A stretch of 42,262 nucleotides of DNA, from positions 1 through 42,262 of the forward strand of contig JAHJTL010000082.1 in assembly GCA_018829775.1 (NCBI GenBank). Reading direction: 5' to 3'. The notes beneath the pieces were generated by a model. It did not search any database and was not told the DNA's origin. It was given only the letters and a program-made list of their open reading frames with translations. Below are positions 1,259-27,416 of this stretch, one piece after another (positions within the stretch are counted from its first letter, which is position 1; every line of letters starts with the position of its first letter). A program made the position numbers and the translations under genes. The DNA comes from Chloroflexota bacterium (GTDB taxonomy: Bacteria; Chloroflexota; Dehalococcoidia; Dehalococcoidales; RBG-16-60-22).

Positions 1259-1287
1259 TTGACAAGAAAAAGGCAATGTAATAAGCT
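1259..1287 (+). promoter_or_regulatory. Possible promoter for the TIM-barrel/panB pair
   Basis: A perfect -35 TTGACA (1259-1264) is followed 17 bases later by TAAGCT (1282-1287), a poor -10. The TTG of this -35 could be misread as a start codon for the following gene. The real start is the ATG at 1346, which has its own GGAGGG. Confidence 0.35.
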
Positions 1288-1345
1288 TTTCTTCGGGTCG
1301 GACACTGGAGCATTCCTGAATTCCAAATGCACTGGAGGGACGTAT

Positions 1346-2281: not shown

Positions 2282-2302
2282 AAGAAGGAGGATTATAGAC
2301 AG

Positions 2303-3160
2303 ATGCCAAAGAAATCCGTTCTCGATTTTGTGGAGATGAAAAAGAAGGGTGAGAAAATCACCTATCTAACCGCCTATGATTTCCCCATGGCCAGTTTCTG
2401 TGAAAAAGCCGGTATCGACATGATACTGGTTGGCGACAGCGCCGCTATGGTTGTCCACGGTTTGCCCGGAACGGTGCCGATGACCATGGACCAGATGATT
2501 CAACATTCCCAGATAGTCAGACGGGGCGCGCCCAACACGTTCATCATCGGCGACATGCCTTTCCTCTCTTACCAGGTTTCAAGGGAAGGCGCCATTGAAA
2601 ACGCCGGTCGGTTCTTCAAAGAGGCGAGCATGGATGCCGTCAAACTGGAAGGTGGTCGCCGGGTCATCAAGCAGATTGAGGGCATCGTTGAAGGCGGCAT
2701 GTCCGTGATGGGGCACATCGGCCTGACCCCGCAGAGCTCCGGGCAGCTGGGCGGTTTCAAGGCGCAGGGGCGCACCGCGGATACCGCCATGGAGCTGATA
2801 AAGGACGCTCTTGCCATTGAAAAAGCGGGTGCCTTTGCCCTTTTGGTGGAAGCAGTTCCTCCGGAAGTGGGTTTGAAAATTTCCGAGATGCTTAAAATCC
2901 CGGTGCTGGGCATCGGCGCCGGCATGTACACCGACGGCCAGGTATTGATTATCGGTGATATGCTGGGCTACTTTGAGGCGTTCACGCCCAAGTTCGTCAA
3001 GAAATACGCCAATCTTGCCGAGGTCATTGACAAAGCGTTCCGCGAGTATATCGACGATGTCAGAACCGGCAAGTTCCCCGAGGAGAAGCACTGCTACCGC
3101 ATGGTTGAGGGGGAACTCGACAAGCTGGAATCAATGCTGAAGAATCTGCCACCGCAGTAA
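2303..3160 (+). CDS. panB: 3-methyl-2-oxobutanoate (ketopantoate) hydroxymethyltransferase
   Basis: PanB transfers a hydroxymethyl group from 5,10-methylene-THF to 2-oxoisovalerate, the first committed step to pantothenate and CoA. At 285 residues it is slightly longer than the E. coli enzyme. Metal ligands D45 (VGDS) and D84 (GDMPF), substrate-contact K114 and E116 (VKLEGG) and the catalytic glutamate E183 (LVEAVPPE) are all in place, as are GHIGLTPQS and GIGAG...DGQVL. The loop after VGDS reads AAMVVHGLPGTVPM, where classical enzymes have LGM...G.(D/S)(S/T)T(L/V)PV. It follows an AAGGAGG and a putative TIM-barrel gene, and is closed by a strong terminator. No panC or panD is in the window, so a related aldol reaction cannot be excluded. 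Confidence 0.88.
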   Translation: MPKKSVLDFVEMKKKGEKITYLTAYDFPMASFCEKAGIDMILVGDSAAMVVHGLPGTVPMTMDQMIQHSQIVRRGAPNTFIIGDMPFLSYQVSREGAIENAGRFFKEASMDAVKLEGGRRVIKQIEGIVEGGMSVMGHIGLTPQSSGQLGGFKAQGRTADTAMELIKDALAIEKAGAFALLVEAVPPEVGLKISEMLKIPVLGIGAGMYTDGQVLIIGDMLGYFEAFTPKFVKKYANLAEVIDKAFREYIDDVRTGKFPEEKHCYRMVEGELDKLESMLKNLPPQ

Positions 3161-3197: not shown

Positions 3198-3227
3198 GCG
3201 GCGTGGCATTACGCCACGCCGCTTTTT
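3198..3227 (+). terminator. Rho-independent terminator after panB
   Basis: A perfect 10-bp stem, GCGGCGTGGC paired with GCCACGCCGC around a 5-base loop (ATTAC), is followed by TTTTT at 3223-3227. It ends inside the stop codon of the convergent RACE gene. Confidence 0.93.
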
Positions 3228-5052
3228 AATCGCCGAGCGACAGGCAGCGCAGAAAGGTTTCCTCGAAGTCCGGCCTTCCAGACAACTCGATATGGTGCGC
3301 TTCAGAAGCAATCTTTTCTGCCTGACGCCTTTCTTCCAGGTCGAGCAGGGCTTTCAGGGCACCATCCATGGCCCCGTTGCCGATGAAATGTATTTTTTCC
3401 AGTGGGAACGGTGGAATCAGCCCCAAAGTGACCGCCCTTTCACGGTTGATATAGTTGCCGAACACGCCGGCGAGAAGGACTTCCTGGATATCATCGGCGC
3501 TGATGCCGGCTTCTTTCATGAGCAGTTCCACACCAGCGCGTATGGCCCCCTTGGCCAGCTGCAATTCGCGGACGTCCTGCTGGGTCAGCGTGACCTCTCT
3601 TTCTTCATCTCTGAAGATTATAAATTCCCGCGCTTCCTCACGGACTCTGACCCTCGGTGCCAGTTCCTCCGCCCACCTGGAGTTTACCTCTGCGGGCTGT
3701 AGAATGCGGCCTTTGCGGTCGAGCACTCCTGTCCGGTAAAGCTCCGCCACCAGGTCAATCAGACCGGAGCCACAGATACCTTTAGGTGCCACGCTACCGA
3801 TTACCGAGTAATCTATTTCTGGAGTGGCCTGAAAAGCGCTGATGGCGCCCTTCACCGCACGCATGCCATATTTAATCCGTCCCCCTTCAAAGGCGGGGCC
3901 GGCCGCGGTGGAGGCGGTCAGGACTCCCTTTCTGGTAGCCAGCATCACCTCGCCATTGGTGCCGATATCAATGGCGAGCCTGGGAACACGGCTCTGATGC
4001 AGCCTTGTCGCCAGGATGACGGCCACGGTATCGGCGCCCACAAAGCTGGCAATCGACGGCATGATGTGTACTTTTGCTCTGGGGTGAATCTGCAAATCCA
4101 GTTCGATTGCCGGCAGGTCGAACGGTTGATTCAAGCCTCCAACATACGGCGCCAGCGCAATATATCTGGCCTCCAGTCCCAGTAACGTATGGAGCATGGT
4201 GGTATTGCCCACCACCGTAGCTTCGAAAATTCTGTCCCGTTCTCGTTTGGCATTGCGGCACAGCCGGAGCAAAAGCTGGTTTAAACCTTTTACCAGTTCT
4301 TTCTGCAGTTTTTCTCGCTTTTCAGGACCCTCTTCTGCATACATTATCCGGGAAACAACGTCGGCACCAAAGGTGATTTGGGGATTGAGCTCCGCATCCA
4401 GGGCAACCACCTTACCGGTATGCAGGTCGGCCAGCGCCGCCGCGAGGGTGGTGGTGCCGATGTCGATGGCCACGCCCAGCATATCTCTTTCAGCGCCGGG
4501 TGGGTCCAGTTCCACCACGTCATTTCCCACCACCACCGCCTCCCCTTTAAAATTCCACTCACGGAGGCGAGCCGATAGCTCCCGCAGCAATGGCAGTTCG
4601 GTGCTTACTGGTTTATCTACGGACCGTTCCAGATACTCGGCGAGGCGGTCCCAGTCGGCCCGCTGGTCCTTTAGAGAAGGCTTACTCAATTCGAAATGAA
4701 TGCTCCGGACGTTGGGCTGCAGGGAGATTTCCTCCCCGAGCAACCCAAAACTTGCCTTGGCCCTTGAAATCTCTATCTCAGGAAGGCGGACTTCGCCGGA
4801 CTCCTCCACGGTAACCTGGCAGGCAAGGTGCCAGCCACTGTCCAGTTCCTCCCGGGACAGCTTCTCCTTCTCCGGTTCCGTGTATTTCCGGCTGATTCCA
4901 GAGAGCTGTACCTTGCACTTGAGACAGGTACCCTGTCCTCCGCAGGGTGAATCGAGGGGAATCCCGGCTTCTATGAGTGCGGTGCGCAGGTTATCGCCTG
5001 CCTTCAGTTTCAGTTCGCGGTCGGGAGGAATGACCCGGACGTTAACCTTCAT
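3226..5052 (-). CDS. RACE-type reductive activator of corrinoid methyltransferases (DUF4445/ASKHA protein)
   Basis: These proteins use ATP and a low-potential Fe-S cluster to reduce inactive Co(II) corrinoid proteins back to Co(I). The 608-residue chain starts with a [2Fe-2S] ferredoxin domain with C37, C43, C46 (CGGQGTCLKC) and C78. A linker and an ASKHA-fold ATPase region follow: phosphate loop AIDIGTTTLAAALAD around residue 195, a second AIDIGTNGEVML around 360, GICGSGLIDL around 420 and GVFGNYINRERAV near 550. The ATG abuts the stop of the upstream methyl-THF methyltransferase gene, so the two are translationally coupled. This is the same partner type as MtoD in methoxydotrophs and RACo in acetogens. 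The partner is probably the corrinoid protein at 16237-16872, in a separate operon. Confidence 0.9.
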   Translation of the reverse strand: MKVNVRVIPPDRELKLKAGDNLRTALIEAGIPLDSPCGGQGTCLKCKVQLSGISRKYTEPEKEKLSREELDSGWHLACQVTVEESGEVRLPEIEISRAKASFGLLGEEISLQPNVRSIHFELSKPSLKDQRADWDRLAEYLERSVDKPVSTELPLLRELSARLREWNFKGEAVVVGNDVVELDPPGAERDMLGVAIDIGTTTLAAALADLHTGKVVALDAELNPQITFGADVVSRIMYAEEGPEKREKLQKELVKGLNQLLLRLCRNAKRERDRIFEATVVGNTTMLHTLLGLEARYIALAPYVGGLNQPFDLPAIELDLQIHPRAKVHIMPSIASFVGADTVAVILATRLHQSRVPRLAIDIGTNGEVMLATRKGVLTASTAAGPAFEGGRIKYGMRAVKGAISAFQATPEIDYSVIGSVAPKGICGSGLIDLVAELYRTGVLDRKGRILQPAEVNSRWAEELAPRVRVREEAREFIIFRDEEREVTLTQQDVRELQLAKGAIRAGVELLMKEAGISADDIQEVLLAGVFGNYINRERAVTLGLIPPFPLEKIHFIGNGAMDGALKALLDLEERRQAEKIASEAHHIELSGRPDFEETFLRCLSLGD

Positions 5053-5847
5053 CTATGACAGCTTCCCCTGCCGATAAGCGGTGATGTATCCGGCGCAGAA
5101 CTTGTCCCTGTCCAGAATCGTCTCCGCCGCCGCCAGACCGGCCATAAGCTCGCGGTCGGTGGGGTCAATGATTGCCGAATCAAGCCCCTGGGCCATGGCC
5201 GCAATTAAGAACGTGCGGTTGATAAGCTTCCGCACCGGCAGCCCATAAGATACGTTGGTCAGCCCGCAGATGGTGTGCACTTCCGGCATTTGCCTGGTGA
5301 TTTCACCGATAGCCCCGAGCGCGGCGACTGCCGACTGGGTATCGGTGGCTATGGGGTAAATGAGCGGGTCAATGAAAATGTCATCCGGCGCCACACCTTC
5401 TTTGGTCAAAATGTCGACCATCTGCCGGGCTATATCTACTTTTTCATCAACGGTACGGCCCATGCCGGCATCGCTCTGGCACAGCACGACGATTCTCGTC
5501 CCGTACTGTTTTATCAACGGCAGCATCCCAGCCATACGCTGCTTTTCCATGGTGATGGAATTTACCAGGCACGGCTTCTTCACCAGCTTCAGGGCAACCG
5601 CGATTGCCGCCGGGTCCGGACTGTCCAGGCAGAGCGGCAAATCGGTGGCACCCTGCACCACTTCCACCAGCCAGCACAGGAACTCCGCCTCCTGCCCGAC
5701 GAAGCTGCCGGCGTTTACGTCAATGTAGCTTGCGCCGGCTTCTGTCTGGGACCTTGCCTCATTCCGGATAAAATCGGCATCTTTGGCTTTTATCGCCTCG
5801 CTGATTGTCTTGCGAGACGAGTTAATTCTCTCGGCGACAATTAGCAT
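5053..5847 (-). CDS. Methyltetrahydrofolate:corrinoid methyltransferase (AcsE/MtgA/MtoA-like)
   Basis: 264 residues with the pterin-binding (dihydropteroate synthase-like) TIM barrel used to move methyl groups between a corrinoid protein and tetrahydrofolate. Recognisable barrel motifs in order are AERINSSRKTI, YIDVNAGSF, LCLDSPDP, LVNSITMEK, QSDAGMGR, FIDPLIYPIATD and ICGLTNVSYGLP. The last carries the asparagine that hydrogen-bonds the pterin in AcsE. Length and motif order match AcsE and the MT II proteins of glycine betaine and methoxy compound demethylases. It has a strong GAGGAGG before its ATG, follows a URO-D gene by 25 bases and abuts the RACE gene. The context argues for methyl transfer to THF, feeding the Wood-Ljungdahl methyl branch, but direction cannot be read from sequence. 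Confidence 0.92.
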   Translation of the reverse strand: MLIVAERINSSRKTISEAIKAKDADFIRNEARSQTEAGASYIDVNAGSFVGQEAEFLCWLVEVVQGATDLPLCLDSPDPAAIAVALKLVKKPCLVNSITMEKQRMAGMLPLIKQYGTRIVVLCQSDAGMGRTVDEKVDIARQMVDILTKEGVAPDDIFIDPLIYPIATDTQSAVAALGAIGEITRQMPEVHTICGLTNVSYGLPVRKLINRTFLIAAMAQGLDSAIIDPTDRELMAGLAAAETILDRDKFCAGYITAYRQGKLS

Positions 5848-5872
5848 AAAAATTCCTCCTCAACTGATATCG

Positions 5873-7072
5873 CTAATCGGGCAGCTTGTCCAGGCCGGCA
5901 ATCTCCCGGAGCAGATTGATGAAGTATTTAAAATTATCAAAAGAAACGTCCGGCGGAATGGCGTGGTCCAGACCGGGGAAGAAACCACCCGTCTTACAGA
6001 GGTACGGCACCTTGGACATTACTTCCTCGCGCAGCGCATCTTTCCCCTTGAGGAAAGCCCTTTTATCAATGTGGCCGCCCAGAATGAGCTCCTTGCCGAA
6101 CTTCTTCCTCAGGGCAATGCCGTCCATGCCTGCCGCCACCTCGAGCGGCCAGGGGAAATTGACTCCGACCTCCTTGAGCCAGATAGGTATCAGTTCTTCG
6201 ATATTGCCATCGCTGTCCACATGGATGATATCGATACCATTGCTGTGAAGGAAATCGGTAATTGTTTTGTAGCGGGGTATCATGAATTTCTTGAACATAT
6301 CGGGGGAAATCAAGGGCCCTGCCTTATAGGCCATATCTTCCCAGAACCGGACGAAATCAATCCTCAGGTCTTTGACCGCCCTTTTGGCCACGCCCAGCAC
6401 CAAATAGAGCACCTGGTCCATCATGTCCTCAACCAGTTTGGGGTCGTCGTAGAACCAGTAAAGCAGTCTCTCCAGCCCCGCCCACTCCCGCAGCACCCCG
6501 AAAAAGCCAGCCATCAGCAGTACGGTGGGGGCGTCTTCACTGTTTCGCTGTGCCACATAAGCATCCCAGTCTCTGGGCCATCGCTCGGGAGTATCGGGGT
6601 CAAGCCGTTTCTTGTATTCGTTCCAGGAAGCTCTATCCTTAACCGGATGGTCTAAATACTTGGGCATGCGCAGGGGGTGCTCTTTGGAAACCTCAACCGT
6701 CTGACCGCCGAAAGCGATTTCGACCCGATGGCGTTCATCTTCTCGAATGACCTTCCGTTCAAAAACGGGGACCACCGGCGGGGTGATAAGGTAATGCCCC
6801 GGGCCCATCTGTGTGGGGTCTTCCTTTAAATCGGCACGGTTTACCCCGGCCACGATTTCCTGCGTGCTGTGAATATGGTCAAGCTGAAAATAACGGTTGT
6901 AACCATCCTGGTTTAAAATCTCTTTTGGGGCGCCCTGCCTGACCCAGGTTTCGGGTGTTTCCGACCAGTACTTGTTGAACCAGTCATATATCGGGACTTC
7001 GTCCGGTCGTTGGCCAAGGCACAGCTCCCGAAAGCGTTTCCGATTGGGCCTGAGAACACTTGATTCCTTCAT
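5873..7072 (-). CDS. URO-D superfamily methyltransferase, candidate methoxy/methylamine demethylase (MtoB-like)
   Basis: A 399-residue protein of the uroporphyrinogen decarboxylase superfamily, which in strict anaerobes includes corrinoid-dependent methyltransferases. Features seen are an N-terminal RKRFRELCLGQRPDEVPI, a central MAGFFGVLREWAGLERLL, DFVRFWEDMAYKAGPLISP, then IDIIHVDSDGNIEELIP, LILGGHIDKRAF and DHAIPPDVSFDNF. The zinc region of MtaA-type enzymes reads H-x-C, but here it is H-V-D-S-D-G, as in the URO-D proteins that act on the substrate (MT I). It is not heme-pathway HemE: no other heme gene is nearby and the neighbours are C1 genes. AAGGAGA precedes the ATG. It sits 25 bases before the methyl-THF methyltransferase gene. 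The substrate is unknown. Confidence 0.8.
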   Translation of the reverse strand: MKESSVLRPNRKRFRELCLGQRPDEVPIYDWFNKYWSETPETWVRQGAPKEILNQDGYNRYFQLDHIHSTQEIVAGVNRADLKEDPTQMGPGHYLITPPVVPVFERKVIREDERHRVEIAFGGQTVEVSKEHPLRMPKYLDHPVKDRASWNEYKKRLDPDTPERWPRDWDAYVAQRNSEDAPTVLLMAGFFGVLREWAGLERLLYWFYDDPKLVEDMMDQVLYLVLGVAKRAVKDLRIDFVRFWEDMAYKAGPLISPDMFKKFMIPRYKTITDFLHSNGIDIIHVDSDGNIEELIPIWLKEVGVNFPWPLEVAAGMDGIALRKKFGKELILGGHIDKRAFLKGKDALREEVMSKVPYLCKTGGFFPGLDHAIPPDVSFDNFKYFINLLREIAGLDKLPD

Positions 7073-7144
7073 AGCGCGGTCTCCTTCAGGTCCAGCAGAA
7101 TGGATTCAATAAGAATTTTTTATCTGTTTAAGTATAGTATCTTT

Positions 7145-8116
7145 CTAAATGTTGCACAAACTCTCGGCCAGTTCCGCGATGTAGCGGCGGTTTTCCAGTT
7201 TACCCTGCCACCGGCCGGGAATGGCATCCACGCCGAGATACGCCCCGGAGATTGCGCCCGTCATCGCTCCGATGGTATCCGTATCGCCACCGAGGCTGAT
7301 TGCACCAAGTACCGCACCGGCAAATAAATCGGGCCGGGACAGAAAGCAATAAATGGCGGTGGGGACGGAATTAAAGGCTTCAATGCCGTTTCCCAGCTCA
7401 AGCACCGTTTTTTCCGGGTCTGGCTGAACCATCAACGCGCTTATTTTGTTCAACTTCTCGCGGTACACCTTTTCCAACGTAAAGTTGATTAGCTTGGACA
7501 GGAATTCAGCCCGGTCGAAGTCCGGGGACGGTTCCAGAACAGTAGCCAGGGCAATGGCATAAGCCTGTATAGCAGCGCCTTCCCTGCCCAGCGTATGGGC
7601 ATGCGTAATTTGACTAGACCCGTAGGCCACATCCCGCAGGGTCTCCCGGTTATCACGATAAAATACGCCGATAGGTGCCGCCCTCATTGCCGAGCCGTTG
7701 CCGAAGGAACCACCGCGGTATAATCGCTGGGCCGCTTCATCCCAGGGGACACCGTCTCGAATCATACGGAAGATGCGCGGCGGCCCGGGTCCATAGCCGC
7801 GATAGGGCTCGCGCTCATAGTTGCGGACAAAGGTGTATGCCATATCCTCGCCGTCAAATCCCCGGCACCGCAACAGCGATTCGGCAACGCCGAGCATCAT
7901 GTGGGTATCGTCGGTATAGGTCAATACGGGCAGCCTTTCCGCCACCGTTTCAATTTCCTCGGGTTCCACGCGGTCATAACCTTCAAACGGCGCGCCCAGG
8001 GCGTCACCCACTGCCGTGCCGATAAAGGCACCGAGGAATTTCGACTTCAGAGCCGGACCGTCCATCTGAGAAAAGCTTACTTGCTGCTCAGACCCATCGA
8101 CTGAGCATTCGGGCAT
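7145..8116 (-). CDS. ADP-ribosylglycohydrolase family protein (DraG-like)
   Basis: Hydrolyses N- or O-glycosidic bonds of ADP-ribose using two magnesium ions. The 323 residues carry the three family motifs: GTAVGDALGAPFEG plus YTDDTHM near the N-terminus, RGGSFGNGSAMRAAPIG in the middle and SLGGDTDTIGAMTGAI near the C-terminus. All the acidic metal ligands expected from DraG (TDDT, DTDT) are present, so it should be active. The start used lies eight bases after the aminotransferase stop. An internal ATG 17 codons later (MDGPALKSKF) would begin closer to the conserved domain but has a worse ribosome-binding site. It could reverse ADP-ribosylation of a nitrogen or C1 enzyme or process a nucleoside. 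No partner ADP-ribosyltransferase is in the window. Confidence 0.9.
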   Translation of the reverse strand: MPECSVDGSEQQVSFSQMDGPALKSKFLGAFIGTAVGDALGAPFEGYDRVEPEEIETVAERLPVLTYTDDTHMMLGVAESLLRCRGFDGEDMAYTFVRNYEREPYRGYGPGPPRIFRMIRDGVPWDEAAQRLYRGGSFGNGSAMRAAPIGVFYRDNRETLRDVAYGSSQITHAHTLGREGAAIQAYAIALATVLEPSPDFDRAEFLSKLINFTLEKVYREKLNKISALMVQPDPEKTVLELGNGIEAFNSVPTAIYCFLSRPDLFAGAVLGAISLGGDTDTIGAMTGAISGAYLGVDAIPGRWQGKLENRRYIAELAESLCNI

Positions 8117-8124
8117 TTCTCTGC

Positions 8125-9492
8125 CTAGAGAAACTCCTTCTCAAAATCGGTGATGGCGGCGTCCAGCAGGTCGAAGGCTTCGTCTATCACCGGTTCGGTG
8201 ATAGTGAAGGGAGGTGAGACCAGCAGAGCATCACCGCTGACGCCGTTCTTGATGCCAATGGTGGGATAACTCATAATGCCGTGTTCCATGGCGATATGCT
8301 GGAGGCGGTTGGCTGCCTGCCGCTTCAGGGCAAAAGGCTCCCGTGCCTCTTTGTTCTGCACCAGCTCGATGCCCATGAGCAGGCCCTTACCCCGTATATC
8401 CCCCACCACAGGATGATGGGCCAGCTTTTCTCTCCCCTTCTGGAAAAAGTGCTCGCCAAGCCGGGCACAGCGCTCCACCAGCCCCTCTTTCTGGAGGACA
8501 TCGATAACCGCCAGGCAGGTGGCCGCCGAGACGGGGTTGCCCTCCATGGTGAAACCGTGCACGAAGCTGGCGCCCGTCTCCGAAAATACCCTGCCGATTT
8601 TTTCGTCGATAATCACCACCGCCATCGGGGTATAGCCTCCGGTCATCCCTTTGGCCGAGGTGATGATATCGGGGTTGACGTCCCAGTGATTAATACCAAA
8701 CCACTTGCCCGTCCGGCCAAAGCCACAGATGACCTCATCGTCGACGAGCAACACATCGTACTTGTCGCAAATATCGCGGATAATAGGGTAGTACTCCGGA
8801 ACGGGCACCATGCAGGCTGTGCCGGCGCCACCTATCGATTCGATAAAGAAGGCGGCAACGTACTGCGCGCCGACCTGATTGATAATCTCTTCGAGTGCCC
8901 GGGCGCATTTAATGTCGCAACCCGGATAGGTGAGCTCGTAAGCACAGTGGTAGCATAACGGGGCCGGTATCTTGGGCCACTGGTGCAGTACCGGCTCAAA
9001 CTTCTGCCGCCGCATGGTATGCCCGGAAACGGAGAGCGCACCGAGCGTCATGCCGTGATAGCTCTGCCAGCGGGATAGCACCATGTACTTCTCCGGCTTG
9101 CCCCTTTCCACATGATACTGGCGGGCGATTTTTATCGCTGTCTCGTTGGCCTCGGAACCGCTGTTGCAGAACTGGCACTGTGTTAAATTGGCCGGGGCAA
9201 CGCTGATAATGCGTTCTGCCAGTTCCAGAAGCGGCTCGTTGAGCCAGAAGGCACGAAAGAAGAAGGACACTTTATCAATCTGCTTTTTCGTTGCCTCATT
9301 TACCTTCTGGTTGCCATGCCCGAGGGAGACGACATGAGGCCCGCCGCTGAAGTCAATGTACTTCTTGCCATTCTGGTCATACAGGTATACGCCATCGCCG
9401 CGCTCGCAAATCACTTGCGGCGGAAGGGTTCCATGTAATGTCCCGAAAAGGTGGCTGTTCCGTTTCTGCGCTGTTCCCAATCTATCTGCCAT
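8125..9492 (-). CDS. Class III PLP-dependent aminotransferase
   Basis: 455 residues of the omega-amino-acid:pyruvate/4-aminobutyrate aminotransferase class. Visible motifs are the N-terminal YLYDQNGKKYIDFSGG, the PLP phosphate-binding FCNSGSEANETAIKIAR, the SYHGMTLGALSVSGH stretch, the cofactor aspartate in LLVDDEVICGFGRTG and the Schiff-base lysine in SAKGMTGGYTPM. A four-cysteine insert (LCYHCAYELTYPGCDIKCAR) marks a subfamily whose substrate I cannot name. Class III enzymes act on amino groups not next to the carboxylate, such as taurine, beta-alanine, GABA or amino alcohol products. It lies between an Fe-alcohol dehydrogenase (26 bases upstream) and the ADP-ribosylglycohydrolase (8 bases). 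GGGGGAG precedes its ATG. The product aldehyde could be reduced by the neighbouring dehydrogenase. Confidence 0.9.
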   Translation of the reverse strand: MADRLGTAQKRNSHLFGTLHGTLPPQVICERGDGVYLYDQNGKKYIDFSGGPHVVSLGHGNQKVNEATKKQIDKVSFFFRAFWLNEPLLELAERIISVAPANLTQCQFCNSGSEANETAIKIARQYHVERGKPEKYMVLSRWQSYHGMTLGALSVSGHTMRRQKFEPVLHQWPKIPAPLCYHCAYELTYPGCDIKCARALEEIINQVGAQYVAAFFIESIGGAGTACMVPVPEYYPIIRDICDKYDVLLVDDEVICGFGRTGKWFGINHWDVNPDIITSAKGMTGGYTPMAVVIIDEKIGRVFSETGASFVHGFTMEGNPVSAATCLAVIDVLQKEGLVERCARLGEHFFQKGREKLAHHPVVGDIRGKGLLMGIELVQNKEAREPFALKRQAANRLQHIAMEHGIMSYPTIGIKNGVSGDALLVSPPFTITEPVIDEAFDLLDAAITDFEKEFL

Positions 9493-9518
9493 ATACTCCC
9501 CCTCTGTACTCCGGATGA

Positions 9519-10688
9519 TTACTTTCCGTAAGCTATTTTGTATAGCTCGATTATCTCTTCTTTGCTTGCCTGACGCGGATTATTGGCCGGGCTGCCGCTG
9601 GCAATGGCATCCTCGCTCATTTTCGGCGCCAGCTGGTCGAGCTTTTCTTTATCCACGCCCAACTCACGCAGCGACGGTATCTTTATATCCTTAATGAGCT
9701 TCTTGACCGCCTCAGCGCCGCGCTTCGCCGCTTCCATTTCGGACAGGCCGTTTATATCCACTCCCATAGCCTCGGCAATACGCGCGTACCGGGTCGGATT
9801 TCCCTCCAGGCTGAATTCCATCACCGTGCCGAGGAGGGCGGCATTCGACGCGCCGTGACGCACGTGGAAATAGGCCCCTATGGGCCGCGCCATGCCGTGC
9901 ACCAGCGCCACGGAAGAATTGCTGAACGCTATCCCGCCCATGAGCGCGCCTATCATAGTCTTTTCCCTCGCCTCCAGGTTTTTCCCGTCAGCCCAGGCCT
10001 GCCGCAGATTGCCGGCAATCTGTTCTATGGCGGCAAGGCAGAATAGGTCGCTTATCGGCTGGGCTTTCACCGAAACGTAAGCCTCGATGGCATGGGTCAG
10101 CGCATCGATTCCGGTGGCAGCGGTAATATCGGGTGGCAGCAGTACGGTAAGCTGCGGGTCAACGATGGCTATCTCGGGCATCAAAAATGGGCTGCCGATG
10201 AGCATTTTAACGTCCCGTCTGGTATCGGTAATGATGGTAAACGGTGTAACCTCGCTGCCGGTTCCGGCCGTCGTGGGCACGGCGATAACCGGTCGGCCTT
10301 TCCTGGGGACCTTGCCCAGCCCCATGTAGTCCTCTATTGAGCCTTCGTTGGTGGCCATGACCGATATGGCCTTGGCGGTGTCCATCGGGCTTCCCCCACC
10401 GACGGCCAGAAGACAGTCGCACCCGTGGCCCCGAAATGCCTCCAGCCCTTCCTGAACATACTCTACGACTGGTTCCATATTGACGCCATCATAGATGGCA
10501 TATGCCACGCCGCCCTGTCGCAGCGACTCCAGAACACCATCAAGTATGCCCAGTTTCACCTGGTTCCGGTCGGTCACAATCAGGGCTTTCTTTAAATTTA
10601 ATTTCTTGCACTCATCGCCAACCTGTTTTGACGACCCGGAACCGGTGATAACGGCGTTGGGAATGCGGAAAGTTTTGACGGGCAGCAT
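9519..10688 (-). CDS. Iron-containing alcohol dehydrogenase
   Basis: 389 residues from an ATG at 10686-10688 with GGAGG just upstream; an upstream in-frame start would add 17 unconserved residues. NAD-binding is shown by AVGGGSPMDTAKAI and VPTTAGTGSEVTPF. The metal site motif lies in TGIDALTHAIEAYVS and HGMARPIGAYFHVRHG, supplying one aspartate and three histidines as in the family III dehydrogenases. The length is standard. These enzymes interconvert alcohols and aldehydes with NAD(P)H; members include butanol, 1,3-propanediol, 4-hydroxybutyrate and sulfoacetaldehyde reductases. As first gene of the six-gene operon with an aminotransferase next, it may handle the aldehyde released by transamination. 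Exact substrate not determinable. Confidence 0.92.
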   Translation of the reverse strand: MLPVKTFRIPNAVITGSGSSKQVGDECKKLNLKKALIVTDRNQVKLGILDGVLESLRQGGVAYAIYDGVNMEPVVEYVQEGLEAFRGHGCDCLLAVGGGSPMDTAKAISVMATNEGSIEDYMGLGKVPRKGRPVIAVPTTAGTGSEVTPFTIITDTRRDVKMLIGSPFLMPEIAIVDPQLTVLLPPDITAATGIDALTHAIEAYVSVKAQPISDLFCLAAIEQIAGNLRQAWADGKNLEAREKTMIGALMGGIAFSNSSVALVHGMARPIGAYFHVRHGASNAALLGTVMEFSLEGNPTRYARIAEAMGVDINGLSEMEAAKRGAEAVKKLIKDIKIPSLRELGVDKEKLDQLAPKMSEDAIASGSPANNPRQASKEEIIELYKIAYGK

Positions 10689-10760
10689 AAAGCTCCTCCA
10701 GAGATTAATAAATAGGCTAGATGGTAAGCCCCTTTCCAAGGAAAAGTGACTATCGACAAA

Positions 10761-10789
10761 AGTCTATTATATTCGACTCTTTACGTCAA
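10761..10789 (-). promoter_or_regulatory. Promoter of the Fe-ADH/C1 operon
   Basis: On the minus strand TTGACG (10784-10789) is followed 17 bases later by TAGACT (10761-10766). A better TATAAT at 10766-10771 is only 12 bases from the -35. Either would give a leader of roughly 65-75 bases before the Fe-ADH gene. Confidence 0.45.
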
Positions 10790-10819
10790 TCCATATGGTA
10801 ACAGTCCCGCCTTAGTCGT

Positions 10820-10848
10820 TTGACAAAGATGGCATCCGCAGTTACGAT
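10820..10848 (+). promoter_or_regulatory. Distal promoter of the DUF6282/PAC2 pair
   Basis: TTGACA (10820-10825), 17-base spacer, TACGAT (10843-10848). The -35 is perfect and the -10 matches at four of six positions. It is back to back with the Fe-ADH operon promoter. Confidence 0.5.
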
Positions 10849-10910
10849 AATGCCATACATCATAACAGGATACGGAACCCGGCCTTTTGGTGATTCACCA
10901 ACAATGTTGA

Positions 10911-10919
10911 TGCTATAAT
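10911..10919 (+). promoter_or_regulatory. Extended -10 promoter of the DUF6282/PAC2 pair
   Basis: TGCTATAAT is an extended -10 element (TGnTATAAT) with no good -35. A transcript from it would start close to 10926, at the edge of the GAGGAGG used by the gene at 10942, giving a very short leader. Confidence 0.45.
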
Positions 10920-10941
10920 TGATTGAGGAGGCGTGAAAAAT

Positions 10942-11940
10942 ATGGCCGAAAAACCCTTTGAACTGTCATTGACCCCGGATTACCTGAAAAGAATCGAGGA
11001 AATCATCACTGCGGGAGGGCGGAGCTCGCTTTATGGCCCGGAAGAAGCGGTTGCCGCCATGAAGCAGCCGAATTTCGACAATGAACGTATGTGGGGCCTG
11101 CTACGCGGCTCATATGATATCCACCAGCACACCGGGCCCTCATCGACCACCCAGCGCCTTTTCAGCCAGATCGATTTCGCCATTCAGGCCTGTGAAATGG
11201 GGCAGGCGGGCATCGTCTGCAAGGACCATACCCTGCCAACCTCTCCCTCGGTGCAGCTCACCCAGACGGTCGTTGATAAATGGGCCGAGGAACATAACAA
11301 GAAAAAGACCGAGGTCTTCGGCGGCGTGGTGCTCAATTATGCCGTCGGCGGACTCAACCCCGACGCGGTCGTGGCCAGCTACCGGGTGGGGGGCAAATAT
11401 ATCTGGTTGCCCAACATGGACGCCGCCCATCACCGCAGTGTAACACGACACTCCAAAGGCGGGGGCATTTCCGTCATCGATGAGAAGGGAAACGTGGTAC
11501 CGGAGATGAAGGAAATTCTAAAACTGATGGCGGAGACGGATATGGTGCTCGGCCTGTGTCATCAAAGCACGGCGGAACGCTTCGCCGTGGTCAAGGAAGC
11601 GGTCGAGATGGGAGTGGAACGCATCGAGGTCAACCACGTCAATTATCCGCTGACCATGGTGACGCCGGAGCAGGCCAAGGAACTGGCCAATATGGGCGCC
11701 TGTATCGGCATCTATGCCATGCACCTGGCGCCGCCGGCCTTCGTCTGGGATGAGACGATAGCCTTTTATCAGGCAGTGGGTCCGGAGCGGATTGTCTTCG
11801 GCTCTGACTGCGGTCATATTGAGACCGGCCTCCCCTGGGAACAGATGAGAAAACTGATTCTCGGCTTCCTGTTCCGCGGCGTGCCTGACGAACACATAAA
11901 AATGATGTGCCAGACCAACGCGCACAATCTGCTGCACTGA
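10942..11940 (+). CDS. DUF6282-like metal-dependent hydrolase (amidohydrolase/PHP-type fold)
   Basis: 332 residues from the ATG at 10942, ten bases after GAGGAGG; a GTG at 10933 lies too close to that site. Histidine and aspartate motifs are spread as in metal-dependent TIM-barrel hydrolases: YDIHQHTGPS near residue 60, VCKDHTLPTS, LPNMDAAHHRSVTRH, LGLCHQST, EVNHVNYPL and VFGSDCGH near residue 290. This order (H-x-H, K/H, H, H, D) is that of amidohydrolase-like enzymes. I place it in the DUF6282 group from memory. Its natural substrate is unknown to me; a cyclic amide or lactone is a guess. A PAC2 gene follows 28 bases later, probably in the same transcript, and the divergent neighbour is the Fe-ADH operon. 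Confidence 0.65.
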   Translation: MAEKPFELSLTPDYLKRIEEIITAGGRSSLYGPEEAVAAMKQPNFDNERMWGLLRGSYDIHQHTGPSSTTQRLFSQIDFAIQACEMGQAGIVCKDHTLPTSPSVQLTQTVVDKWAEEHNKKKTEVFGGVVLNYAVGGLNPDAVVASYRVGGKYIWLPNMDAAHHRSVTRHSKGGGISVIDEKGNVVPEMKEILKLMAETDMVLGLCHQSTAERFAVVKEAVEMGVERIEVNHVNYPLTMVTPEQAKELANMGACIGIYAMHLAPPAFVWDETIAFYQAVGPERIVFGSDCGHIETGLPWEQMRKLILGFLFRGVPDEHIKMMCQTNAHNLLH

Positions 11941-11968
11941 TATCTATCCTGATAAGTGGAGGTGGGGT

Positions 11969-12877
11969 ATGATGGCGAAACAGAACAATTTACAATTTTT
12001 GGAAAAGCCAGAGCTAAGGCAGCCATATCTGATCTGCGGCATTAACGGCTGGGTGGATGGTGGAGAGGCGGCTACGGGCACGACACAGTACCTTATCAAG
12101 AAACTGAAAGCTAAAAAATTCGCGGAAATGCCCCTCGACCGTTACCACGTATTCCAGGTGCCGGGGCAGCTATCCCTCAGGCCCCAGATAAAAATCGCGG
12201 ACGGGCTGCTGAAACAACACGTATTTCCGCGTAACGAGTTCTTCTACTGGGTCAACCCTCATTCGGCTAATGACCTGATTCTCTACCTGGGCACGGAGCC
12301 AAACACCAACTGGGAAGAATACACGGAGAATATACTGAATCTCGCCGCGGATTACAGCGCCAGCCGAATTTACGTGCTGGGAGGCGTCCTGGACAAGACG
12401 CCGCATACCAAGGAGGCCGGCGTGTTCTGCGCCTGCACATCGAAAGAGTTACGACAGGAGATGTTGAAGTACAGTATGCAGTCGAGCAACTACGAGGGAC
12501 CAGGCAGCTTCAGCATCACCATGCTCCATCTGTCGCAGAAGAGGAAAATGCCACTGGTGAGCATTATCGCCCGGTCCACCTACTACCCCGAATTCAACAT
12601 CGTCATTCCGCGCAATCCCAAGGCGATAAAAGCGGTCGTGCTCCGGCTGAACAGCCTTTTCCATCTCAATCTGGACCTCTCTGACCTTGACCAGGAGGCT
12701 GACGAGCTGGAGGTGAAGCTCAACTTCATGGCGAGCCATAACCAGGAGTTCCAGGCCTATATTGAGGAGCTGGAAAAGGAATACGTCGAGGTTAAATACG
12801 AAGCGCCGCTCGACCTCACAGCCAATGAAGCGGTACAGCTGGCCGAGGAATTTCTGAAAGAGACGAGGGAAGAATAG
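11969..12877 (+). CDS. PAC2-family protein (proteasome assembly chaperone 2-like)
   Basis: 302 residues. The N-terminal half has the PAC2 pattern: a first strand ending in CGINGWVDGGEAATGTTQYLI, then YHVFQVPGQLSLRP, LILYLGTEPNTNWEEYT, SRIYVLGGVLDKTPHTKE and YEGPGSFSITMLHLSQKR, with a VSIIARSTYYPEF strand. The C-terminal 70 residues are helical and acidic (EELEKEYVEVKYE). PAC2 proteins are widespread in Actinobacteria and Chloroflexi even where proteasome genes are absent. Their bacterial role is unsettled; the fold resembles purine-nucleoside-phosphorylase-like proteins. GGAGGTGGGG precedes the start; a second ATG follows immediately at 11972. It converges with the MtaA-like gene and ends 16 bases from it, with no terminator visible. 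Confidence 0.82.
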   Translation: MMAKQNNLQFLEKPELRQPYLICGINGWVDGGEAATGTTQYLIKKLKAKKFAEMPLDRYHVFQVPGQLSLRPQIKIADGLLKQHVFPRNEFFYWVNPHSANDLILYLGTEPNTNWEEYTENILNLAADYSASRIYVLGGVLDKTPHTKEAGVFCACTSKELRQEMLKYSMQSSNYEGPGSFSITMLHLSQKRKMPLVSIIARSTYYPEFNIVIPRNPKAIKAVVLRLNSLFHLNLDLSDLDQEADELEVKLNFMASHNQEFQAYIEELEKEYVEVKYEAPLDLTANEAVQLAEEFLKETREE

Positions 12878-12893
12878 CTAACTCCGTGGGCGG

Positions 12894-13928
12894 CTAATAG
12901 CCCTCTTCCGCGGCGGCGATTATCGCCTTCAGGTTTTCAATAGGGGTCTGTAGCGAGATGGCACACTCCGGCCCGATGGAGGCAACGCCCGCTTCTATGT
13001 TGTACCTGGCCTGTTTATACACATCATCCGGCGTACCCTGCAGCAGGCCCTCAATATTGCCGATGCCCCCCAGCAGCGATACCTGGCCCCCCGCCGCTTC
13101 AACAGCTTTCTTCGGGTCGTTCTGCCATTCAAAGTGATAGCCGTCATAGCCCTCGGTGGCGATGTACGGAATACGGTCGAGGCACCGTCCACATATATGC
13201 AGGATGGTCGGCCCCCCTATCTGCGCCAGCATCTTACGGTGCACCGGCACCAGGAAGTCGGCATAGGTCTGGGCGCTGACCATGGCTCCGGTGGCGTGGT
13301 CGGGAAGCACCACCGCATCGGCACCGGCGCGGAGCTGGGCGTTAGCAACGGCAATGGTCACCGGCATGTACGCCTCCAGGTATGCTCTCACCTGCTCGGG
13401 GTCAAGTCGCACCAGGATGAGGAAGTCCTCCACACCGACCGTATGGTAGCAGATGGTCCACGGGCCCATCACCTTGCCGAGTATGGCCACGCGGTCGCCG
13501 TACTCACGGCGCAGCTTCGAGATGGCATCGAGCACCACCTTTATGGACGGTTTTTCCAGCAGATTGTCCGGGATAACGACGTCCCCGGGGTTCTTCACCG
13601 GGTGCGTCATCGTCTCTGGCATCATATTATCGCTGCCCCAGTTCACCTCGCAGCCGAGGGCGGCCGCCTCCTGCTGAACGCTGAACTCCGGCATGATGGT
13701 ATCGAAGCCCAGAACCTCGTAGCCGGCGGCGGCCAGTTCCGCCATGGCACTGGCATCGGTATGGGCATCGGGAAAATGGACGCCGACCTTGTTTATCAGT
13801 TCCACACAGACAATTGAGGTGGGATTGGAGACGGAAATGCGCTTGCCCTTACGTCCGCCCATCAGGTTGGCCAGGAAACGTCGCCTCGGGGTCAGGTCAG
13901 GCTTTTCTCCGTTGGTCTCAGCAGTCAT
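12894..13928 (-). CDS. MtaA/MtbA-like methylcobamide methyltransferase (URO-D superfamily, Zn type)
   Basis: 344 residues. Transfers a methyl group between a corrinoid protein and a thiol or other acceptor through a zinc site. The zinc ligands expected of MtaA and MtbA are present: H244 and C246 (LHICGRC) and C322 (GPECAISLQTP). The N-terminal LGFDTIMPEFSVQQEAAALG is typical of this branch. It therefore differs from the three other URO-D proteins in the window, which lack the Cys ligands. In methanogens the acceptor is coenzyme M; a bacterium would need another acceptor, possibly THF via the separate MeTr, or a different thiol. It is the last gene of the 16872-12894 operon, eleven bases after the previous stop, with its AGGAG overlapping that stop codon. 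Confidence 0.85.
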   Translation of the reverse strand: MTAETNGEKPDLTPRRRFLANLMGGRKGKRISVSNPTSIVCVELINKVGVHFPDAHTDASAMAELAAAGYEVLGFDTIMPEFSVQQEAAALGCEVNWGSDNMMPETMTHPVKNPGDVVIPDNLLEKPSIKVVLDAISKLRREYGDRVAILGKVMGPWTICYHTVGVEDFLILVRLDPEQVRAYLEAYMPVTIAVANAQLRAGADAVVLPDHATGAMVSAQTYADFLVPVHRKMLAQIGGPTILHICGRCLDRIPYIATEGYDGYHFEWQNDPKKAVEAAGGQVSLLGGIGNIEGLLQGTPDDVYKQARYNIEAGVASIGPECAISLQTPIENLKAIIAAAEEGY

Positions 13929-13939
13929 CTTCTTTACTC

Positions 13940-15064
13940 CTAGACTTCGATTGGTAGGCTGCCATACTTATCAATCAACTCGACGACCCGTCGCACGCGG
14001 TTGATATCACCATCGAAGGGTACGTTGTCCCCCATCCCCACGATGAACCGATAACCCGGCGCCATCTCTTTAAACATATTCATGACGTAGGCGTCGAAGT
14101 CCTCGTCGCTGTACATCGGCTCAAACAGTATCGACGGTATCCCTCCCCATATGGTTACCTCATCGCCCAGCTGCTCCCGAAATTCTCTCATGGTAACCCC
14201 GGTCTGTGGGGCCGGCGTAATCGCCTCTGCGATGTCGATACCGGTCTCACGGAACAGGGGGTTCAAGCGTCTCATCTCCCCGTCGGCATGTACCGTGGCC
14301 AGGCAGCCGTGGGCATGGAGAAAGTCGCACACCTCCCGAAACCAGGGCACAAAATACTTCCGGAATACCGGCGTCTGAATGTCATCGCTCCAGTTGCTGC
14401 AGACCTGCAGTATCTCAAGTCCGCTGGTGACGGTTATCTCACGCTTTTTGCGGTCCAGTTCGTTCAAGAGCTCGATCAACTCCTCAACTTCCGCCGGGCG
14501 GTCAGCAAGCTCGTAGAAAAAAGTTTCATAGCCCAGTATTTCACGCATGACCCGCTGTACCGGCGACCAGGCCCTGCCCACCGGCGCAATAACTGTCCCT
14601 TCCTCACCAAGCTCGTCGCGCATCTTCTCCAGTGGCTCAAAATTGGCCACCGGCACCGTGTGCTCGATGACATACTTGAGCACCGGGTAGTCTTTTTCGC
14701 TCTTGAATAGTTTCTCCATCTCGTACTTGACCGAATACCCCTCGGACGTGTCCAAAATTTCTTTCTTGGTTACCGTTCCGACAGGAGTACGGTACTCGGT
14801 ATCGATATAAGGCGGGTCCTGTTTCTCTATCACTTCCATATCATGGTATTCTTCCCTGACGAGGGAGGCGAACAGGCGATACTGAATGCCGGCGCCGAGG
14901 TCACGGACGACGTCTATCTGGCTCCGGCCCCGGTATTTATCGGGAAGCGTGCCGTGGGCATCGTGATATTTATACCAGAGGTCGATGCGCGCCCCGAAGG
15001 GCAGTTTGTCCTGCTTTTCGCCCCGCGCCGCCGCCAGTATCCTTTGCTTCTGCGTCATTGTCAT
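13940..15064 (-). CDS. URO-D superfamily methyltransferase, tandem paralogue A
   Basis: 374 residues, and by eye about two thirds to 70% identical to the upstream neighbour at 15086-16207. Shared motifs are RIDLWYKYHDAHGTLPDKY, WSPVQRVMREILGYE, FYELADRP, NWSDDIQTPVFRKYFVPWF, TVHADGEMRRLNPLF, WGGIPSILFEPMYSDEDF and FIVGMGDNVPFDGDINR. The H-A-D-G motif replaces the H-x-C zinc ligands of MtaA. It is probably an MT I enzyme that demethylates a substrate onto the corrinoid protein encoded two genes upstream. The ATG is chosen by paralogy and a preceding AGGTTACAA; a second ATG lies two codons later. The first half is more divergent than the second, which suggests different substrates on a shared corrinoid-docking half (inference). 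Confidence 0.8.
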   Translation of the reverse strand: MTMTQKQRILAAARGEKQDKLPFGARIDLWYKYHDAHGTLPDKYRGRSQIDVVRDLGAGIQYRLFASLVREEYHDMEVIEKQDPPYIDTEYRTPVGTVTKKEILDTSEGYSVKYEMEKLFKSEKDYPVLKYVIEHTVPVANFEPLEKMRDELGEEGTVIAPVGRAWSPVQRVMREILGYETFFYELADRPAEVEELIELLNELDRKKREITVTSGLEILQVCSNWSDDIQTPVFRKYFVPWFREVCDFLHAHGCLATVHADGEMRRLNPLFRETGIDIAEAITPAPQTGVTMREFREQLGDEVTIWGGIPSILFEPMYSDEDFDAYVMNMFKEMAPGYRFIVGMGDNVPFDGDINRVRRVVELIDKYGSLPIEV

Positions 15065-15085
15065 TTGTAACCTGAACCCCTGTGC

Positions 15086-16207
15086 TTATATCTGAACCGG
15101 CAGTCGACCATGTTTATCGATAAGCTCCGCGACCCTGCCGACGCGGTTGATATCGCCGTCGAAGGGCAGATTATCTCCCATCCCCACGATGAACCGGTAC
15201 CCCGGCGCCATCTCTTTAAACATATTCCTGACGAAGGCATCAAAGTCCTCATCGCTGTACATCGGCTCAAAGAGTATCGACGGTATCCCTCCCCATATGG
15301 TTGCCTCATCGCCCAGCTGCTCCCGGAACTCCTTCATACTGACCAGGGTCTGTGGGGCGGGGGTGATTGCCTCGGCAATATCTATAGAGGTTTCCCTAAA
15401 CATGGGATTCAGGCGCCGCATTTCGCCATCGGTGTGCGCCATGACCAAGCGCCCGTGGGAATGGAGAAACTCGCATACCTCCTGAAACCAGGGCACAAAA
15501 TACTTGCGGAATACCGGCGTCTGAATATCATCGCTCCAGTTGGCGCAGATATTGAATATTTCCAGGTCGCACTCTATGCCCACCTGCAGCTTTCTTCTCT
15601 CCAGGTCTTTCACCACCTCTATCATCTCCTCCACCCGCGCCGGGCGGTCCGCCAGCTCATAGAAAAACTCTTCGTAGCCGATTATTTCACGCATTACACG
15701 CTGTACCGGCGACCAGAGCCCGCCGGCTGCGGTCATCACCATGCCGTCCTCGCCAACTTCTTCCCGTAATTTAGAATATGGCTCAAAATTCTCCACCGCC
15801 TCGGTGTGTTCCATGACGTACTTTATTACCGGGTAATCTTTCTCACTCTTAAAGATTTTCTCCATTTCATACTTTATCCAGGGCCCTTCGGAAGTATCGA
15901 AGAGTTCCTTTTTGGCCACGGTGCCGATGGGTGTATGGTATTCGGTAGTGATATAAGGCGGGTTGTTTGTTTCCACCACTTCCATATCCCGGTATTCTTC
16001 CCTGGTTACGGCAAAGAAGCGCATCTGGGCGCCGGCACCCAGGTCGCGCAGAATATCGGTCTGGCTCCATCCCTTATATTTATCGGGGAGTGTGCCGTGG
16101 GCGGAATGGTAGTTATACCACACGTCAATGCGCGCCCCGTAGGGCAGTTTATCCAGATGCTCACCACGCACCGCCGCCAGTATCTGCTGTTTATGAGTCA
16201 TTGCCAT
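15086..16207 (-). CDS. URO-D superfamily methyltransferase, tandem paralogue B
   Basis: 373 residues starting MAMTHKQQILAA, chosen by alignment with paralogue A. An 18-codon upstream extension would overlap the corrinoid gene and has no counterpart in A. It carries the same series of motifs as A, including NWSDDIQTPVFRKYFVPWF, MAHTDGEMRRLNPMF and FIVGMGDNLPFDGDINR. The long identical stretches in the C-terminal half also persist at DNA level. It has H-T-D-G instead of Cys zinc ligands. It lies 29 bases downstream of the corrinoid protein gene and 21 bases upstream of A. The position directly after the corrinoid gene is typical of MT I genes. Heme biosynthesis (HemE) is unlikely because of context and paralogy. 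Confidence 0.8.
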   Translation of the reverse strand: MAMTHKQQILAAVRGEHLDKLPYGARIDVWYNYHSAHGTLPDKYKGWSQTDILRDLGAGAQMRFFAVTREEYRDMEVVETNNPPYITTEYHTPIGTVAKKELFDTSEGPWIKYEMEKIFKSEKDYPVIKYVMEHTEAVENFEPYSKLREEVGEDGMVMTAAGGLWSPVQRVMREIIGYEEFFYELADRPARVEEMIEVVKDLERRKLQVGIECDLEIFNICANWSDDIQTPVFRKYFVPWFQEVCEFLHSHGRLVMAHTDGEMRRLNPMFRETSIDIAEAITPAPQTLVSMKEFREQLGDEATIWGGIPSILFEPMYSDEDFDAFVRNMFKEMAPGYRFIVGMGDNLPFDGDINRVGRVAELIDKHGRLPVQI

Positions 16208-16236
16208 TCGTAATCTGGATCTCTCGAGATAAGTTC

Positions 16237-16872
16237 CTATTTCCCCAGAAGCTGCTTGCACGCTGGCACCGCCCGGCCACCGTCATGAGCATAGCTATCG
16301 GCGCCGATGTAGTTGGCATAGTCCTGCGTGACCGGCGCCCCACCGACAATCACCTTCACGCTGGAACGCAGCCCCACCTCCTCCAGCGACTTGATGACCT
16401 TACCCATCACCGGCATGGTCGTCGTCAACAGGGCCGACATGCCCAGAATATCCGGCTTTTTCTCCTTCACCTCGTCAATGAATTTCTGGACCGACACGTT
16501 GAGCCCGAGGTCAAAGACCTCAAAGCCGTTCCCGCTGAGAAAGGTGGCGACCACGTTCTTGCCTATGTCGTGCATGTCGCCCTCAACGGTGCCGATGACC
16601 ACCCTGCCGATGGTCAGAACGCCGGTCTTCTCCAGTGCCGGCTGGAGCACCTCAAGGGCAGCCTTCATCGCCCGCGCCGCCATGAGCATATCGGGTAAAA
16701 AGTACTCGCCGCTGGAGAATTTCTCACCCACCACCGCCATGCCGGCCTGTAATCCCTGCGCGACGATGTCCTGCGGGTTGGTGCCGGCATCGAACGCCGC
16801 CTGAGTCAACGCCACGGTTTTTTCACGGTCGCCCTGGTCAATCGCCTGGGCCAAAAGAGACAAATCAGCCAT
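16237..16872 (-). CDS. Methyl-accepting corrinoid protein (MtoC/MtbC/MttC-like)
   Basis: 211 residues, the usual length for the methyl carrier of three-component methyltransferases. The N-terminal half is the helical cap (LVAQGL-like helices, MAVVGEKFSSGEYFLPDML). The C-terminal half is the Rossmann B12 domain with the base-off motif GDMHDIGKN, where H101 ligates cobalt, followed by LGMSALLTTTMPVM and IVGGAPVTQDYA, which bind the nucleotide tail. AAAGGAG precedes the ATG. It is the first gene of an operon with two URO-D paralogues and an MtaA-like enzyme. It takes methyl groups from the MT I enzymes, and its oxidised cobalt would need the RACE protein encoded at 3226-5052. Confidence 0.95.
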   Translation of the reverse strand: MADLSLLAQAIDQGDREKTVALTQAAFDAGTNPQDIVAQGLQAGMAVVGEKFSSGEYFLPDMLMAARAMKAALEVLQPALEKTGVLTIGRVVIGTVEGDMHDIGKNVVATFLSGNGFEVFDLGLNVSVQKFIDEVKEKKPDILGMSALLTTTMPVMGKVIKSLEEVGLRSSVKVIVGGAPVTQDYANYIGADSYAHDGGRAVPACKQLLGK

Positions 16873-25973: not shown

Positions 25974-26010
25974 TTGGTTGGTGGCTATTAAAGGTATATA
26001 ATACCCTTAA
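25974..26010 (+). promoter_or_regulatory. Promoter of the DNA methyltransferase gene with overlapping inverted repeat
   Basis: TTGGTT (25974-25979), 17 bases, TATAAT (25997-26002). The -10 sits at the centre of an inverted repeat: arms 25988-25997 and 26001-26010 match at nine of ten positions with a 3-base spacer. Such a site is a candidate operator, possibly for autoregulation. GAGG at 26036-26040 is the ribosome-binding site of the gene. Confidence 0.6.
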
Positions 26011-26046
26011 TATGATAAAATAAGGCAAAAATTGTAGAGGTATATT

Positions 26047-27312: not shown

Positions 27313-27356
27313 TGAGCCAACAACCAAGATTGAGTAGAACCAATCCCCTTGTTTCG

Positions 27357-27382
27357 TTGACCTGTTTAATGTAGAATATAAT
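27357..27382 (+). promoter_or_regulatory. Possible promoter of the TPR-gyrA operon
   Basis: TTGACC (27357-27362) and TATAAT (27377-27382); the 14-base spacer is short, so the true -35 may be offset. The -10 overlaps an in-frame ATG at 27381, supporting the downstream start of the TPR gene. Confidence 0.35.
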
Positions 27383-27416
27383 GCTTGCAATCGGGCTTAT
27401 TTTTTCAGGGGGGATG

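Follow-up and report, generated by a model that had tools for sequence, protein, structure and literature searches.

Gene content of the locus

We analysed a stretch of 42,262 nucleotides (the window) from a Chloroflexota bacterium of the order Dehalococcoidales (assembly GCA_018829775.1, contig JAHJTL010000082.1). Scans with Pfam and NCBIfam profiles place a putative demethylation locus on its minus strand at positions 3226–16872, with genes for a corrinoid protein (CP), three proteins of the UroD superfamily (UroD3, UroD2 and UroD1), an MtaA-like protein, an MtgA-like methyltransferase and the reductive activase RACE. The locus is split into two gene groups, the second of which also contains genes for an iron-containing alcohol dehydrogenase (Fe-ADH), a class-III aminotransferase and an ADP-ribosylglycohydrolase; plus-strand genes for a DUF6282 and a PAC2 protein stand between the groups. 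In systems of this type, methyltransferase I (MT I) methylates the Co(I) form of the CP, methyltransferase II (MT II) passes the methyl group to a C1 carrier, with an activase to repair the cobalt (PMC8630106). The genes are listed below, where L numbers denote loci and C numbers contigs of the host genome.

16237–16872, minus strand: CP, the methyl carrier, 211 amino acids; PF02607 and PF02310 (B12-binding 102.9 bits, B12-binding_2 83.2 bits), TIGR02370 219 bits against a cut-off of 215, DMHDIG motif intact.
15086–16207, minus strand: UroD3, core MT I candidate (open reading frame, ORF, open to 16261); PF01208 45 bits, H-x-D-G-E motif, invariant D345, AlphaFold2 fold.
13940–15064, minus strand: UroD2, MT I candidate, tandem duplicate of UroD3 (73% identity); PF01208 63 bits.
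12894–13928, minus strand: MtaA/CmuA-family methyltransferase (the MtaA-like protein), a putative sulfur/selenium-type port; TIGR01463, PDB 4ay7, H244/C246/C322 triad.
11969–12877, plus strand: PAC2-family protein, conserved neighbour; PF09754 138 bits; found in L036, L039 and L045.
10933–11940, plus strand: DUF6282 amidohydrolase-like protein, conserved neighbour; PF19799 187 bits; found in L036, L039 and L045.
9519–10688, minus strand: Fe-ADH, accessory (ORF open to 10739); PF00465 194 bits; homologues begin MLPVK.
8125–9492, minus strand: class-III aminotransferase, accessory; PF00202 322 bits; 87–88% identical homologues in L036 and L039.
7145–8116, minus strand: ADP-ribosylglycohydrolase-family protein; PF03747 228 bits; not seen at the equivalent place in L036 and L039.
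5873–7072, minus strand: UroD1, possible further methyltransferase; PF01208 44 bits; 85% identical homologue in L036, none in L039; paralogue on C20.
5053–5847, minus strand: MtgA-like methyltetrahydrofolate:CP methyltransferase (MT II); NF005719 324 bits against a cut-off of 259, top PDB match 4o0q (E = 2.8e-61), motif residues D75, N96 and D160 and GLTN all intact.
3226–5052, minus strand: RACE, reductive activase of the CP; RACo_C_ter (264 bits), Raco_middle, RACo_linker and Fer2; 2Fe-2S cysteine set intact, from C37.
2303–3160, plus strand: PanB (ketopantoate hydroxymethyltransferase), convergent neighbour, not claimed for the system; TIGR00222 322 bits against 207.6; in L037 and L039.
1259–2281, plus strand: protein matched by no Pfam or NCBIfam profile, next to PanB and likewise not claimed for the system; 81% identical homologue in L037.

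All the genes named in the original prediction, which had described a complete corrinoid demethylation toolkit, are found at these positions by profile scores and intact motifs, and the four roles of the MtoABCD system that it invoked (CP, MT I, MT II and activase) are encoded. The locus brings together CP, MT II, activase and one or more MT I candidates, which is the gene content that defines such a system.

In the UroD superfamily, a His-Cys-Cys metal site marks methyltransferases acting on sulfur or selenium, and its substitution by carboxylates marks O-methyltransferases (PMC10418091). Both kinds of motif are found in the window. The MtaA-like protein belongs to the MtaA/CmuA family (TIGR01463, 262 bits against a cut-off of 235.4) and matches PDB entry 4ay7 over almost its full length (E = 2.2e-48), and its H244/C246/C322 triad is invariant across five homologues. 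Because the His-Cys-Cys site is kept, we propose thiol or selenol chemistry for this protein, which probably gives the CP a second port of that kind. Its presence stands as originally predicted, and its place as one of the four Mto roles does not.

In UroD2 and UroD3 (UroD2/3), the aligned metal-site motif is H-x-D-G-E followed by a later invariant Asp (D345), and both cysteines are missing. UroD1 is 22–26% identical to UroD2/3 over part of its length and carries the motifs VDSDG and LDH, its first His not being invariant; judged by sequence, it is a different, variably present family, unrelated to UroD2/3 at sub-family level. All three proteins pass the Pfam cut-off (44–63 bits against 23.9). 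The start of UroD3 is probably the ATG at 16207 and not 16261, because homologues begin at that point.

Promoter-like sites occur upstream of CP (16954–16926) and of Fe-ADH (10789–10761); the promoter scan (13 against 8.4) and the terminator scan (15 against 13.4) were both near chance.

Conserved core and host genome

Overlapping subsets of the locus genes recur together in five other metagenome-assembled genomes (MAGs) at 59–92% identity, so that their grouping is not due to chance. Of 245 genomes in the class, four contain close homologues of UroD2/3, the host among them, and when 84,980 species genomes were scanned by pattern, UroD2/3 homologues turned up almost solely in Chloroflexota MAGs. 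The one exception is a protein of a KSB1 MAG, 25% identical to UroD2/3 and located near ACS, AcsV and CFeSP genes (L046:4350–14457). A scan of viral_contigs with UroD3 gave no relative, and a plasmid search with UroD1 gave remote matches only; a UroD1 homologue in L053 adjoins a corrinoid protein.

A CP gene lies directly upstream of the UroD2/3 homologues in nine of the 11 informative loci (the window, L035, L036, L037, L038, L040, L043, L044 and the L047 fragment; not L041 or L042), and CP homologues with 50–86% identity adjoin UroD2/3 in most relatives. The genes form a contiguous row in L038 (CP-UroD3-MtaA-MtgA-RACE) and in L037 (CP-UroD3-MtgA-RACE-DUF1638), the latter without MtaA. The longer layout of the window is shared by L036, which lacks UroD2 and the glycohydrolase, and by L039, which lacks UroD1 and the glycohydrolase. 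MtaA is kept in the window, L036, L038, L039 and L045. From these sequence comparisons we infer a conserved core of CP, UroD2/3, MtgA and RACE, with MtaA as a frequent partner and the remainder variable. Because the core is contiguous in two Dehalococcoidales MAGs (L037 and L038), the two-operon layout looks derived; the split originally described holds for the window, not as the basic layout. It should be noted that the opposite-strand genes for PanB and the unmatched protein (window 1259–3160) also adjoin the locus in L037 (both) and L039 (PanB).

The host genome comprises 2.16 Mb in 118 contigs and is 95.6% complete. A search for Wood–Ljungdahl genes found FTHFS, MTHFR, AcsE, CFeSP and CODH/ACS: contig C8 encodes CODH, ACS, CFeSP, AcsE, AcsV, a molybdopterin oxidoreductase and FTHFS; two genes of the MTHFR family are present in the genome as well. 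The window holds a dedicated MtgA/RACE set, because the AcsE and AcsV of the same genome are only 32–33% identical to its MtgA and RACE.

The absence of an MttB-type protein, from which the original prediction concluded that UroD proteins are the only MT I candidates, extends to the whole genome (no PF06253 match), but MtmB-like proteins on C19 and six other UroD genes are encoded elsewhere in it. Neither a HemE (at E 1e-60) nor a CdmB-like protein (at E ≤ 1e-5) was found in the genome. Four further CP modules are present, on C13 and C61 (CP with UroD), C10 and C19. On C19 (L021:6484–9968), the CP gene is followed by two tandem genes of the MtmB family (monomethylamine methyltransferases, PF05369) of 461–462 codons with no in-frame stop, and these homologues seem to do without pyrrolysine. 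Contig C10 (L022:6663–9692) carries a second group of Fe-ADH, CP and UroD, in which Fe-ADH is 41% and UroD 27–28% identical to those of the window. Elsewhere in the window, the G+C content falls to 0.43 at 26001–28000 (surroundings about 0.54), where ORF 26047–27312 resembles a DNA methyltransferase; this stretch is possibly a recent insertion.

UroD lineages and the methyl donor

In the tree, the HemE proteins of Chloroflexota genomes group in one clade (support 100/100) that leaves out all UroD proteins of the window. HemE identity of UroD1–3 was rejected on this ground, on TIGR01464 scores of at most 51 bits against 303 and on the missing MRQAGR motif, which bears out their predicted separation from HemE. 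The O-demethylase/CdmB group was represented by a C-terminal stretch of CdmB as printed for 9rui and by four CdmB-like proteins of the phylum found with it, which are 32–38% identical over that fragment. These sequences group together (100/100) to the exclusion of UroD2/3 (100/99) and UroD1 (100/100), on long branches; UroD1 joins UroD2/3 with moderate support (94/91), likewise on long branches. MtoB is reported to be the closest known relative of CdmB, at 31% identity (PMC13222342), so that the tree bears on MtoB only indirectly. Judged on these stand-ins, descent of UroD1–3 from MtoB or MtvB is not supported, and neither is kinship with CdmB; the original prediction, which likened the locus to MtoABCD, is thus supported in part. 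UroD2/3 appear to form a narrow clade of their own, nearly confined to Chloroflexota and separate from the CdmB-like stand-ins; we found no characterised member of it. Another Chloroflexota locus (L077:448–7586), the source of one pair of the CdmB-like proteins, has DUF1638, RACE, MtgA, CP and two CdmB/MtoB-like UroD genes in one row and is likely an O-demethylase or dehalogenase cluster from another lineage of the phylum.

Dehalococcoidales are known for organohalide metabolism, which speaks for a halomethane such as chloromethane as the donor, a class also used by the superfamily members CdmB, CmuA and MecC/MecE. Haloalkane MT I enzymes of this superfamily also arose more than once (PMC13222342). 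We nevertheless regard this donor as very improbable: UroD2/3 fall outside the CdmB-like clade, the genome has no CdmB-like protein, and the UroD2/3 motif residues are polar and conserved, unlike the cavity of CdmB, which has been described as mostly aromatic and metal-free.

The AlphaFold2 model of UroD3 (pLDDT 85, pTM 0.85) matches URO-D (best Z 23.1, root-mean-square deviation, rmsd, 3.4 over 312 residues) and Methanosarcina mazei MtaA (Z 20.8, rmsd 3.5 over 306 residues). The model shows the UroD/MtaA superfamily fold and says nothing on function; CdmB is not among the fold matches listed for it, which is uninformative on kinship. A single-sequence model of UroD1 (pLDDT 38) was not usable.

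Because H-x-D-G-E with the later Asp fits the O-type side of the superfamily rule (PMC10418091), we propose O-methyl donors for UroD2/3, with an oxygen-methyl (methoxy) compound as the probable main donor. Our reading, to which we assign a probability of about 0.75, is that the locus encodes a corrinoid-dependent system for methyl-group uptake that feeds the acetyl-CoA pathway, with a methoxy compound as the probable donor. UroD2 and UroD3 would transfer the methyl group of an external substrate to the Co(I) of the CP, MtgA would pass it from the CP to tetrahydrofolate (THF), and RACE would re-reduce accidentally oxidised cobalt at the expense of ATP. The resulting CH3-THF would enter the acetyl-CoA (Wood–Ljungdahl) pathway of the host. 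The MtaA-like protein would serve the same CP as a second (thiol or selenol) port, and UroD1, Fe-ADH and the aminotransferase would be accessories that differ between genomes. The sequence data show the gene identities, the intact motifs, the conserved core, the acetyl-CoA pathway genes and the separate place of the UroD proteins in the tree, whereas the direction of flow, the oxygen donor and the MtaA and accessory roles are what we infer from them. L077, in which a CdmB-like MT I sits in an equivalent gene arrangement, is a further point in favour.

Several points weigh against it. Some UroD MT I enzymes (CdmB, Moorella MtvB) are zinc-free (PMC13222342), and UroD2/3 may therefore fall outside the O-type rule. 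No aromatic-acid transporter or aromatic pathway was found within the window, and the OpuAC transporters beside relative L042 point to quaternary amines. As to the original prediction, the complete methyl-transfer toolkit for C1 metabolism stands on gene content and conservation; the methoxy-aromatic substrate it suggested draws on the carboxylate motif and competes with other donors.

A quaternary or N-methylated amine, namely choline, glycine betaine or a related compound, could also be the donor for the same machinery, with UroD2/3 as a non-MttB route of amine demethylation and with Fe-ADH and the aminotransferase processing the amino-alcohol product. In its favour, OpuAC genes for glycine-betaine-type ABC transporters come after the UroD2/3 homologue of L042 (10001–14663) and before another CP and UroD module, that on C13 (L016:4665–10818), and the host genome has no MttB. 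The top NCBIfam profile of Fe-ADH is the choline dehydrogenase GbsB, but its score is under the cut-off (392 against 550 bits). The transporter context also varies (TRAP transporters adjoin relatives L031 and L032) and includes no transporter in the cluster of the window, the carboxylate motif suits oxygen better, and all MT I enzymes for quaternary amines that we know of belong to the MttB family. On balance, an amine donor seems unlikely; the TRAP transporters suggest that donors may differ among family members.

If instead the MtaA-like protein were the main methyltransferase, acting on a methylated sulfur or selenium substrate as in type 1 mlp clusters, UroD2/3 would be secondary. The invariant His-Cys-Cys triad, the assignment of such UroD proteins to sulfur and selenium chemistry (PMC10418091) and the retention of MtaA in the window and four of its relatives (L036, L038, L039 and L045) favour this possibility. 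It is made improbable by L037, where CP, UroD3, MtgA and RACE are contiguous without MtaA, by the lack of both cysteines in UroD2/3 and by the exemplar type 1 mlp clusters, which have several His-Cys-Cys proteins and no THF methyltransferase.

Returning to the uptake of methyl groups by UroD2/3, a bolder version, which we hold to be doubtful, is that these proteins make up a novel class of MT I that hardly occurs outside Dehalococcoidia. They would act on a donor not previously linked to UroD enzymes, perhaps a quaternary amine or a methoxylated amino-alcohol, and would share their CP with a thiol-specific MtaA encoded in the same operon.

Uncultured Dehalococcoidia occur widely in sediments and groundwater, little is known of what they grow on, and the lineage is noted mainly for organohalide respiration. 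A methyl-uptake core beside the acetyl-CoA pathway offers a concrete, testable carbon source for them, in a cluster where predicted O-type and S-type sites seem to share one corrinoid protein. An incomplete literature search found no publication on such a system in Dehalococcoidia.

Comparison with known systems

The closest parallel in roles is aromatic O-demethylation by MtoABCD (Methermicoccus, Archaeoglobus) and MtvABC (Moorella), with which the window shares a CP, a UroD-superfamily MT I (in two tandem copies), an MtrH/MtgA-type pterin MT II and a reductive activase. It differs in that UroD1–3 lie outside the CdmB-like clade standing in for MtoB, an extra His-Cys-Cys MtaA protein is present, Fe-ADH and aminotransferase take the place of aromatic transporters, and the host would use THF and the acetyl-CoA pathway, not methanogenesis.

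The chloromethane system CdmBCA of Acetobacterium dehalogenans (PMC13222342) likewise combines a UroD-fold MT I, a CP and an MtgA-type MT II, but CdmB matches UroD2/3 no more than weakly (profile E 0.007–0.07) and is missed by the UroD1 profile. Compared with MtaA of M. mazei (4ay7), the MtaA-like protein keeps the zinc triad and aligns over nearly its whole length, but it scores under the MtaA equivalog cut-off (250 against 400 bits) and its locus has no MtaB. To our knowledge, use of coenzyme M by the host is not to be expected.

Type 1 mlp clusters also unite a CP, RACE and an MtaA-like His-Cys-Cys protein (PMC10418091); the window has a single His-Cys-Cys protein, a dedicated MtgA and two carboxylate-type UroD proteins. 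Identity with these clusters was rejected on content, as Mlp2 and Mlp3 (several His-Cys-Cys UroD proteins) are required and the window has one. Taken together, these comparisons suggest chemistry of a known kind carried out by a distinct lineage of substrate-binding UroD2/3 proteins.

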